A stretch of DNA of 35,283 bases, taken from the IMG/VR virus record IMGVR_UViG_3300025483_000894, positions 1-35,283 of that record. One strand, 5' to 3'. Below the pieces are notes generated by a model. The model had not been told where the DNA came from and did no database searches. It saw only the letters and a list, made by a program, of their open reading frames with translations. Origin of the DNA: a virus. Below are positions 17,720 through 20,467 of this stretch, in pieces. Positions within the stretch are counted from its first letter, which is position 1. The number at the start of each line of letters is the position of its first letter. The translations under genes were made by a program, and so were the position numbers.

Positions 17720-17767
17720 AATCAAAGTTTTTATTTGATTGACATTTCATCAAAATAGTTTATATAT
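17720..17767 (+). promoter_or_regulatory. Promoter of the tmRNA gene, with abutting inverted repeat
   Basis: AATCAAA (17720-17726) and TTTGATT (17734-17740) form an inverted repeat that runs into TTGACA (17739-17744). The -10 lies in TATATATAT (17761-17769) at 16 or 17 bases spacing. The predicted start is near 17774, just before the acceptor piece. Layout recalls the three promoter cassettes upstream, but with different arms. Confidence 0.75.
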
Positions 17768-17835
17768 ATCTAGTAATCGTTGATACAATTCAGCGCATGG
17801 ACAGGACCGCGGGGCAGTACCGCGCAGCTCCACCA

Positions 17836-17907
17836 TAACTACACTTGAGCGGTTGGCCTAGTGCAAGTAAGGACTCGAAAGAGAATAGACTTGAGTGTAG
17901 TTATGAT
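17836..17907 (+). other. Intervening segment of the tmRNA precursor (removed in maturation)
   Basis: A 72-base spacer between the CCA end of the acceptor piece and the G1 of the coding piece. CATAACTACACT (17834-17845) pairs perfectly with AGTGTAGTTATG (17894-17905), so the precursor forms a 12-base helix stacked beyond the acceptor stem. This places both cleavage sites side by side, as expected for processing by RNase P at G1 and a 3' exonuclease/endonuclease at CCA. A small CTC-GAAA-GAG hairpin lies in the loop. Confidence 0.8.
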
Positions 17908-17991
17908 GGGGCTGAACAAGGATCGACTGACGTGAAGAGATGAGAGTAGATTACCGTGTTGGCCTACGTTATTAAGCCAAAATTTTTAATT

Positions 17992-18036
17992 GCAAATGAC
18001 AATTATAAACCATCTGGATTTGCCCTAGCGGCGTAA
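17992..18036 (+). other. tmRNA proteolysis tag reading frame
   Basis: The resume codon GCA is followed by codons giving ANDNYKPSGFALAA and a TAA stop. The ANDN start and ALAA end match bacterial SsrA tags; the terminal LAA is the ClpX recognition element. The tag is 14 residues, the usual alphaproteobacterial size. This frame is the strongest single proof of the tmRNA call. Confidence 0.92.
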
Positions 18037-18068
18037 TCAAAGGGGGTTGGCCACTTACCTAGCAACAG

Positions 18069-18086
18069 AAAATGTGGCACATTTTT
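18069..18086 (+). terminator. Possible 3' end/terminator of the tmRNA transcript
   Basis: AAAATGT (18069-18075), loop GGC, ACATTTT (18079-18085), then T. The stem is AT-rich and weak. GCCAC (18050-18054) can instead pair with GTGGC (18074-18078), so the two structures compete. Confidence 0.4.
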
Positions 18087-18108: not shown

Positions 18109-18912
18109 ATGACCAAATTTCTATCAACAACAGCCCTTGTATTCGCGGGTACAGCGGCATTTGCAGATCAAGCACCTGTAACACCAACACCAGCAGTCAC
18201 ACTTAGTGGCGAAATTGAAACAGTAATCGCTGAAGGTCTGAATGATAAATGGGGTGCAACTACTTCATTCGGTTTTGATGGCGCTTTGACAAACGGCGCT
18301 GCAACAGGTTCAATGGAATTTGTTGTTGACTCTGATAATGATCTAACACTTGACGGTTGGTCAATGGGTACCAATGTTGCAGGAGTTGCAATGTCTTTTG
18401 GTGACCAAGGTAATATCTGGTTTGACACAGAGTCTGGCGCAACAATTGAAGAACCAACAATGGCTGGCGAAAGCTTGTCCCTCGGCGTTGGTGGTGCAAC
18501 GGTTGCATTGGCATTCACTGATATTGGTACAGACGTAACTGACATTGCTAACGTACAAGGTGCATACACACTAAACGTTGGTATTGCCAATGTAACTACA
18601 GCAGGTGATTATAACCTCGACTCCAAAGAATGGGTTGTAGGCGGCCGTGCTGATACAGCAGGAATGCTTGACGGTGTTCGTCTAGGTGGTGCCGCAACAT
18701 ACGGTTCTGCGTCAGAGAACATTGCTTTTGAAGCAGATGCTACTGTAATGGGCCTGACTGCATATCTTGCAGGTGACCAGGATGATCTTGCACAAAATAT
18801 CGGTGGTTCATATACATATGACCTAAGTGGTATTGATCTAAAAGGTGCTGTCGACTATGACATTGATGCAGAAACATATGCACCATCTGTAACAGCGACA
18901 TTCGCATTTTAA
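18109..18912 (+). CDS. Outer-membrane porin-like beta-barrel protein
   Basis: A 267-residue protein with a clear Sec signal peptide: basic start (MTKF), hydrophobic core and cleavage after AFA (residue 19 or so, then DQAP). The mature part is rich in Gly, Ala, Asp and Thr with alternating strand-like segments (VTLSGEIETVIAEGL, WGATTSFGFDGAL, GTNVAGVAMSFG) and ends in the aromatic ATFAF, the terminal-phenylalanine signal for BAM insertion. It resembles alphaproteobacterial porins of the Porin_4 type but is shorter. It could form a diffusion channel during infection, or alter receptor properties to block superinfection. It lies 40 bases after the tmRNA, with AAAGGAAG before the ATG, and ends in a strong terminator. 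Confidence 0.75.
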   Translation: MTKFLSTTALVFAGTAAFADQAPVTPTPAVTLSGEIETVIAEGLNDKWGATTSFGFDGALTNGAATGSMEFVVDSDNDLTLDGWSMGTNVAGVAMSFGDQGNIWFDTESGATIEEPTMAGESLSLGVGGATVALAFTDIGTDVTDIANVQGAYTLNVGIANVTTAGDYNLDSKEWVVGGRADTAGMLDGVRLGGAATYGSASENIAFEADATVMGLTAYLAGDQDDLAQNIGGSYTYDLSGIDLKGAVDYDIDAETYAPSVTATFAF

Positions 18913-19008: not shown

Positions 19009-19548
19009 ATGAGCAACGAGTTGAAGAAATTAACGTGGGATCATCATCAAGCAGCAGAACGGCGGGCATTTGCTCGTAAGCTTTTAAGAGGCGAGTTATC
19101 GGACCACGAATATTACATATTCCTGGTTTGCCAATGGCACAACTATACGCCACTTGAAAATGCTGTTATCATTCCACCTAATCTCAATGCTATATACCGA
19201 GCGGACCGTATCAAAGCTGATATGCAGGAACTCGAAAAACTACACGGATTTGGTCACCCATCGGCATTACCAGCATCCGTAATAGAATACCAAAACCATA
19301 TTGGACAACTTGCCGAATCTGAAAACAATCATGGTCTACTTGCCCATATGTATACTCGGCATTTTGGAGAATTACACGGCGGTCAAATTATTAAAAAGAA
19401 AGCACCAGGATCTGGAACAATGTATGACTTTGACGGTGATAAAGAATTGCTTATCTCAGAGTTTAGAAAACTTCTTGACGATAGCATGGCACCCGAGGCA
19501 AAAAAGTGTTTTGAATTTGCCTCAAAATTATTTGATGAATTGTCATAA
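19009..19548 (+). CDS. hemO: Heme oxygenase (biliverdin-forming)
   Basis: A 179-residue, all-helical heme oxygenase. It opens heme with O2 and reductant to biliverdin, CO and Fe2+. The proximal helix reads TWDHHQAAE, making His13 the likely heme ligand (family pattern H-x-x-A-E). The distal helix is YTRHFGELHGGQIIKKK (residues 115-131), matching the usual YxRYLGDLSGGQxLKK. Two substitutions stand out: the key distal Asp is Glu121 and the Ser is His123. The gene after next encodes a bilin reductase, so biliverdin is probably its product. Similar phage heme oxygenases are known next to pcyX in marine metagenomes. It is preceded by a late box rather than an early promoter. Confidence 0.88.
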   Translation: MSNELKKLTWDHHQAAERRAFARKLLRGELSDHEYYIFLVCQWHNYTPLENAVIIPPNLNAIYRADRIKADMQELEKLHGFGHPSALPASVIEYQNHIGQLAESENNHGLLAHMYTRHFGELHGGQIIKKKAPGSGTMYDFDGDKELLISEFRKLLDDSMAPEAKKCFEFASKLFDELS

Positions 19549-19619: not shown

Positions 19620-19787
19620 ATGCAAGATGAAGCATTAGAAGACATTAACCTTAAACCTAAGAAACGTGCAGATCGACTCGCAAGAAGTATCAGCGCAAGG
19701 CGAAGGCGGAAGACGTTGAAACAAGTAAGAGAAACACGTTTACTAAATGTATATGCCAAACTGAAAAGGGCACGTAGAAATAAATGA
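19620..19787 (+). CDS. Small basic hypothetical protein ahead of the bilin reductase
   Basis: 55 residues with AAGGAGG before the ATG and an ATGA overlap with the next gene, so translation is coupled to the bilin reductase. It is very basic: RLARSISARRRRKTLKQVRE near the middle and RARRNK at the end, which suggests nucleic-acid binding. No cysteine or histidine. Not recognised as a known family. Confidence 0.7.
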   Translation: MQDEALEDINLKPKKRADRLARSISARRRRKTLKQVRETRLLNVYAKLKRARRNK

Positions 19788-20467
19788 CACCACTATGGGA
19801 CCGGCTTAACAGCTATGCTGAATATATATCAAACTCATTTGATAATAAGTTCGAGCGTTATGACAACCAAAAATATACTGATGATATGCACTTTCCTGGA
19901 TGGACTGATACCTTTTGGAATTCAGATCAAATCTACAAAGCGCATTTGAAAACCATTGTACCAGAAAACGGTAAAGGTTTATGGTTGATGCACGTTAACG
20001 TATTTCCAAAAGCAAATATTGAATTACCTATTCTTGGGTTTGATATTGTTGCTGGTCCCAAAAAGATTACAGGTTCGTTTATGGACTTTTCACCATTACA
20101 TGGTTTTCCACATCCTTACCATAATTACATGGAACGTCGGGTTGAGAAACTTGAATGGAATAAACCACGTGAATTACCACCGTGGGCAAAAGAAATCTTT
20201 TCAAGTGATATGCTTGCGGTTGGTAATATTAATACTGATGATGAGCTTAATCAATTTATTCAAGTAACAACCGATTTGGTAGATTATTATCTAGATAATT
20301 TAGATGATAATGCCTTTGTATCACACCGCGATACACTGATCTTATTAAATAAGTATTGTCAAAATCAAAAATTAAATCCACATTTGCACAGATCCATTTT
20401 AGCAATGGGCATATCCGAAGAAGATAAAGATGATTATGTCAACAATGTTTTATTTGAGGAAATTTAA
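19784..20467 (+). CDS. pcyX: Ferredoxin-dependent bilin reductase, PcyX-like
   Basis: 227 residues of the HY2/PcyA/PebS family, which reduces biliverdin with electrons from ferredoxin. The N-terminus ISNSFDNKFERYDNQKY is a PebS-like opening. The central motif ELPILGFDIVAGPKKITGSFMDFSPL (residues 80-105) carries the conserved Asp101, equivalent to the catalytic Asp105 of PcyA/PebS. The C-terminus YCQNQKLNPHLHR ... YVNNVLFEEI is also typical. PcyX enzymes from uncultured marine phages, found next to heme oxygenase genes, make phycoerythrobilin from biliverdin by two two-electron steps. The gene order here fits that group; PebS or PcyA regiospecificity cannot be excluded from sequence alone. The acceptor of the bilin is unknown: no phycobiliprotein or phytochrome gene is in the window. 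Confidence 0.85.
   Translation: MTPLWDRLNSYAEYISNSFDNKFERYDNQKYTDDMHFPGWTDTFWNSDQIYKAHLKTIVPENGKGLWLMHVNVFPKANIELPILGFDIVAGPKKITGSFMDFSPLHGFPHPYHNYMERRVEKLEWNKPRELPPWAKEIFSSDMLAVGNINTDDELNQFIQVTTDLVDYYLDNLDDNAFVSHRDTLILLNKYCQNQKLNPHLHRSILAMGISEEDKDDYVNNVLFEEI

Follow-up and report, generated by a model that had tools for sequence, protein, structure and literature searches.

A permuted alpha-type tmRNA gene of a marine T4-like phage, most likely working, with an intervening sequence that is probably a tolerated slot for cassette exchange

Is the circularly permuted tmRNA gene carried by a marine phage a working gene, and what is the spacer that separates its two pieces? The question is raised by a locus in the window, by which we mean the whole stretch of DNA analysed, a 35,283-base virus record with T4-like genes that comes from a marine T4-like phage and whose DNA polymerase shows 45% identity to cyanophage homologues such as that of S-MbCM25. 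Two Rfam covariance models match the locus on the plus strand far above their cut-offs, RF01849 (alpha_tmRNA) at 17735-18081 with 103.7 bits (gathering 50; E 1.8e-27) and RF04321 (tmRNA_permuted) at 17773-18036 with 108.1 bits (gathering 47; E 2.1e-20). The identity of the gene is thereby established by computation: window 17773-18081 (+) is a circularly permuted tmRNA of the alphaproteobacterial type, the CCA-bearing acceptor piece preceding the coding piece in the sequence and in the Rfam alignments. The proposal of an earlier note on this DNA, a phage-borne permuted two-piece tmRNA with its own tag, is thus borne out, and the Infernal search against Rfam suggested there returned two matches rather than none. 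ARAGORN, likewise suggested, failed to agree and reported neither a tRNA nor a tmRNA in the window, which, with two covariance models matching strongly, is taken as a miss by the program; annotation relying on ARAGORN would overlook the gene. The features of the locus are as follows.

17739-17767, plus strand: sigma-70-like promoter TTGACA-N17-TATATA, read by eye from the sequence
17773-17835, plus strand: acceptor (tRNA-like 3') piece, from the RF04321 and RF01849 alignments and from acceptor pairing and covariation in relatives
17773-17778, plus strand: P2 strand GTAATC, within the acceptor piece
17808-17824, plus strand: T-arm, within the acceptor piece
17825-17831, plus strand: acceptor 3' strand, within the acceptor piece
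17832-17835, plus strand: encoded ACCA, end of the acceptor piece
17836-17907, plus strand: intervening sequence (IVS), 72 nt, non-coding in the window, a shared cassette
17836-17849, plus strand: 5' strand of the IVS clamp helix, pairing with 17890-17903 (14/14 pairs)
17890-17903, plus strand: 3' strand of the IVS clamp helix, followed by UGAU at 17904-17907
17908-18081, plus strand: coding (mRNA-like) piece from G1; the RF01849 match ends at 18081 and the 3' end is approximate
17992-18036, plus strand: tag reading frame ANDNYKPSGFALAA (codons 17992-18033) and stop TAA (18034-18036)
18109-18912, plus strand: porin-like gene, the syntenic neighbour downstream, kept beside the permuted tmRNA in relatives

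The acceptor stem (17825-17831 with 17908-17914, CAGCTCC/GGGGCTG) forms all 7 of 7 pairs including G3-U70, the feature recognised by alanyl-tRNA synthetase, and among relatives it covaries as a stem of 7 bp with G3-U70. The positions given earlier for the acceptor strands, the CCA end (17835), G1 (17908) and the tag all agree with the alignments, and the LAA-ending tag announced there can be read as ANDNYKPSGFALAA, a frame that ends in a small hydrophobic degron. An outer helix between the two pieces is readable as GTAATC 17773-17778 with GATTAC 17949-17954 (6 bp); among the phage tmRNAs in the matches listed such a helix forms in 69% of the true pairings of the two pieces and in 43% when the pieces are swapped, a modest gap, and the inter-piece helix in the alpha_tmRNA alignment contains several non-standard pairs. 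The tmRNA stretch as a whole folds more stably than dinucleotide shuffles (z -2.9). Unusually long tags of 24-31 residues, as read, occur in L033, L060, L093 and L099, for example ANDNVSNVFSFVDFGSLKNYVNEDYALAA.

With respect to genome context, the tmRNA sits between a 216-aa gene of unassigned family and the porin-like gene, the product of which has no Pfam match and is a porin in our own reading. In related viral contigs a permuted tmRNA lies directly upstream of porin homologues at 53-100% identity, and as the position is the same in relatives down to 53% porin identity, the locus is a gene that has been retained rather than a chance fragment. The permuted tmRNA is also present in a 221-kb relative. 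No SmpB gene was found in 12 phage records, the window and 11 others including the 221-kb relative, so the phage tmRNA is assumed to depend on host SmpB. Downstream of the porin-like gene the window encodes a heme oxygenase (19009-19548; PF01126, E 4e-22) and next to it a ferredoxin-dependent bilin reductase (19784-20467; PF05996, E 2e-18); the pair is a hemO plus PcyA/PcyX-type cassette, as described in phages (PMC11480375).

Directly ahead of the tmRNA 5' end, the promoter boxes TTGACA (17739-17744) and TATATA (17762-17767) are separated by 17 nt; the consensus scan does not list this promoter, its rule demanding T at the last -10 position. Among the matches listed, 110 of 162 phage copies have a -10-like box upstream (TATAAAT, TATATAT and similar), and 73 of the 162 carry as upstream box TATAAATA, which is also the late-promoter motif of T4. 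The tmRNA had been credited with its own early promoter; the promoter is readable, but because of these 73 copies its early timing is not established.

A permuted tmRNA in a phage is not new, which answers a question the earlier note had left open: the two-piece tmRNA of the OM43 phage Melnitz has been reported, together with a count in which 53 of 133 unique phage tmRNAs are two-piece structures, 50 of these 53 being marine or aquatic (PMC9004378, 2022). The same work puts forward both roles suggested in the note, keeping translation going while host mRNA is destroyed and marking truncated host proteins differently. Like the window, Methylophilales phage Melnitz (MZ577095-MZ577098) is marine and T4-like and combines a permuted alpha-type tmRNA with a clamp-ended IVS; unlike the window, it has a longer IVS with a 54-codon ORF, and a glutamine riboswitch (PMC9004378), for which the window gives no Rfam match. 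Our scan of IMG/VR for the alpha-type core pattern returned at least 120 contigs. Phage-borne tmRNAs also exist in one piece, for example in cluster C1 mycobacteriophages, where they are not permuted and have no IVS. The alphaproteobacterial permuted tmRNA (RF01849; merged model RF04321) shares with the window the gene order, the G3-U70 acceptor stem, the encoded CCA, the T-loop type and the LAA-ending tag, while its IVS, unlike that of phages, is short and seldom clamped. Two phage records hold unannotated permuted tmRNAs, Phaeobacter phage MD18 (L182; MT270409.1 20285-23573, 118.7 bits) and Sinorhizobium phage Phosso (L185; PV764938.1 348096-351698, 113.3 bits, IVS 410 nt), and a contig binned as Nitrosopumilus (L235; JAJCXK010000034.1) holds an alpha-type tmRNA core and is likely misbinned bacterial or phage DNA.

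When excised by pairing-based segmentation from 101 distinct phage genes, a non-random set of at least that size, and from 53 bacterial genes, many of them from SAR11, the IVS has a median length of 74 nt (range 5-410, among the matches listed) in phages and of 12 nt in bacteria; for alphaproteobacteria the estimated median is 26 nt, with 4 long ones among the 150 best-scoring matches. In 69 of the 91 phage IVSs of at least 20 nt among the matches listed the ends pair better than shuffles, and by far the commonest register (68 of 91) pairs base 1 with base -5 and leaves UGAU before G1. In 75 distinct phage genes chosen without regard to the IVS, pairs 2-11 are formed in 57-70 genes against shuffle maxima of 44-61, among the matches listed, and each is represented by four to six pair types, a covariation established by computation. 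The ends of the phage IVS are accordingly predicted to form a conserved, covarying helix in a fixed register, the clamp. As the terminal UGAU could pair with the opposing ACCA at 3 of 4 positions, the clamp would continue the stack of the acceptor stem with hardly a break. Some alphaproteobacterial IVSs (L417, L428, L431, L436 and L462) also have a helix in the register of the clamp, which may therefore be older than the phages. The spacer helix had been seen from the sequence alone, though with 12 instead of 14 pairs, and what it signifies, a conserved clamp that encloses a cassette open to exchange, had been missed.

Two simple accounts of the clamped IVS were rejected. Clamp-bearing phage tmRNAs are not a single clade, as the label has to change 11 times along the tree and a one-clade topology is rejected; copies with a short IVS are interspersed among the clamp-bearing ones. 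Nor does the IVS look like a spliced intron or homing element: Rfam matches no intron at the tmRNA, and none of the 19 nested ORFs tested has a mobility domain. Within the window IVS no known RNA was found, Rfam giving no match up to E 5.

That the IVS is exchanged between phages is established computationally. The window, L129, L130 and L132 have flanks near identity and wholly different IVSs (72, 63, 36 and 164 nt), and among the matches listed seven pairs of phage genes combine coding pieces at least 92% identical with unrelated IVSs. Conversely, ten IVS clusters occur, among the matches listed, in tmRNA bodies less than 80% identical: L050 and L132 share 140/140 nt of the interior with coding pieces 63% identical, L054 and L125 40/40 nt with coding pieces 69% identical. 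The window IVS itself recurs at 67-72 of 72 identical positions in eight other phage tmRNAs among the matches listed (72/72 in L467, L469 and L473), the coding pieces of which are 59-81% identical; body, T-arm and tag differ in all eight and the acceptor stem in seven. A 21-nt core of the window IVS is found in at least 13 contigs, every time within a tmRNA gene. L465 departs from the window IVS at five positions, and four of these make up two compensatory changes, each altering both bases of a clamp pair (4/65 and 5/64). Between the clamp strands, the 40 non-coding nucleotides of the window IVS (17850-17889) are nearly invariant across nine phage tmRNAs and match no Rfam family. In the eight sharers of the window IVS the shared block borders at CCA and G1, and in L125/L054 and L080/L024 it extends through the T-arm to GGATCGAC, as it does in L132/L050 with the exception of the acceptor tip; as both acceptor halves flank the insert, the acceptor stem stays paired with either type of boundary. 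The viral sample is non-random and its counts are minimum values, and metagenomic contigs can be chimaeric, although the same IVS arrangements recur in separately sampled contigs as well as in the isolates of Melnitz.

Many of the longer IVSs contain a protein gene. Among the matches listed, 24 of the 40 distinct IVSs of at least 100 nt have an ORF that follows a Shine-Dalgarno sequence and exceeds the length seen in dinucleotide shuffles (p <=0.05); the set of 40 includes mutual relatives and does not represent 40 independent events. The nested ORF mostly starts at IVS nt 12-23, just beyond the 5' clamp strand, and fills most of the IVS; over all 40 long IVSs its mean length is 37 aa against 13 expected. 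In comparisons of related nested ORFs, dN/dS is computed as 0.04-0.23 in seven of eight cases and as 0.53 in one, so that these ORFs bear signs of purifying selection. Two of those tested (L100 and L014) match the Pfam family DUF6356 over the cut-off, and that of L416 matches DUF2061 slightly below it. Products resembling small membrane proteins are predicted for L416, L363, L336, L398, L146 and L390, as for many IVS-nested ORFs. Three nested ORFs have no match elsewhere among 50,697 phage records. On several contigs with nested ORFs, other genes match families typical of phages, namely tape measure, DnaB-like helicase and ribonucleotide reductase. In Melnitz the ORF of 54 codons (46096-46257), the product of which starts MFKWLSKTRLVVITRDYF, lies inside the annotated SsrA, is identical in four isolates and has a relative in L339; it is unannotated in the records and without mention in PMC9004378. 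Several nested ORFs, for example those of Melnitz and L339, extend into the tmRNA coding piece. The window IVS has no Shine-Dalgarno-led ORF of the nested type, and the 410-nt IVS of Phosso no coding ORF above shuffles.

Cumulatively, we consider it very probable, from sequence comparison, that the locus is a phage alpha-type two-piece tmRNA gene, most likely a working one, with the IVS as a tolerated slot for the exchange of cassettes. One precursor RNA would be transcribed from the locus, in which the strands beside the IVS would pair as the 7-bp acceptor stem, the ACCA/UGAU step and then a clamp helix of 10-14 bp. This pairing would join the acceptor halves into a substrate for tRNA end-processing, and host enzymes, RNase P at G1 and a 3' nuclease at CCA, would excise the IVS without ligation. 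The two pieces, together with host SmpB, would then free stalled ribosomes, with ANDNYKPSGFALAA as the tag that is added. As the IVS would be discarded and only the clamp is seemingly needed, the slot could tolerate cassettes passed from phage to phage, which are non-coding in the window and in relatives often amount to an entire gene for a small protein. A nested gene would be translatable only from the uncut precursor or the released IVS, and since several ORFs enter the coding piece, translation and processing would compete. Tentatively, and with somewhat more doubt than belief, one may go further and regard the IVS as a slot for mobile clamp-ended units, many of them small protein genes, which are cut out by tRNA end-processing and the translation of which competes with the making of tmRNA.

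Other explanations deny the gene its function. Instead of rescuing ribosomes, the RNA might act as a decoy for host tmRNA or inhibit it, and a precedent exists in the tag-less tmRNA-like RNA of phage DS6A, whose expression in E. coli inhibits the endogenous tmRNA (PMC11915505); this reading is very improbable, as the window gene keeps an intact LAA-ending tag, like 52 of the 64 distinct phage tags among the matches listed, and preserves acceptor stem, G3-U70 and CCA with compensatory change. It is even more improbable that the gene came from a host and serves the phage in no way, as a passenger or a copy in decay. Host tmRNA genes do serve as integration sites and fragments are found in prophages (PMC9004378), but the position beside its neighbours is kept down to 53% identity, close relatives show compensatory changes, and the phage tmRNAs cluster separately from the bacterial ones in the tree.

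With a working gene, the question is how the IVS came to vary. That it is not exchanged at all but inherited vertically, its sequence fixed by strong selection, would suit the near invariance of the window's 40-nt interior across nine genes, but near-identical phages with unrelated IVSs of other lengths are impossible under vertical constraint, which makes this the least credible of the alternatives. A dedicated mechanism of movement, whether a recombinase with the hairpin as its substrate or insertion at the RNA level, is unlikely, though less so than the foregoing explanations: the block shared by the eight sharers of the window IVS stops at CCA and G1, the conserved flanks are very short, and the cassette units have inverted-repeat ends. 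On the other hand, other exchanges take in the T-arm as well as the first part of the coding piece, as general recombination with selection for acceptor pairing would produce, and no mobility gene is present among the cassettes examined. Exchange by general recombination, which would proceed through the conserved flanks, combined with selection for acceptor pairing is thus most likely.

Foreign sequence absent from the mature RNA is known from other tmRNA genes, as a T-loop group I intron and as IVS inserts, of which one tRNA-Ala and one repetitive element are described (PMC11915505). The phage IVS differs from the intron in the absence of splicing, and from these inserts, which are single cases, in that clamped IVSs with shared cassettes and nested genes recur in many phages. 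No report of a clamped, exchangeable or protein-coding IVS was found in the open-access literature; Sharkady and Williams 2004, under subscription, could hold earlier IVS helices. While the phage tmRNA itself is known, the exchangeable, clamped and sometimes coding IVS seems to be a new aspect, and the discarded spacer of phage tmRNAs has apparently been overlooked until now.

The permuted gene may tolerate foreign DNA because its acceptor halves flank the insert, so that one exchange swaps both and leaves them paired. Melnitz, isolated on a cultured host, carries a nested gene, which makes the idea of a cassette slot directly testable. Should mobile clamp-ended units be involved, they would represent a class of mobile unit that resembles introns but does without splicing. 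If the IVS is a cassette slot with nested genes, a gene for a translation-rescue RNA would double as a site of gene exchange, ordinary annotation would overlook proteins inside the tmRNA gene, and a single transcript would have to choose between translation and processing.
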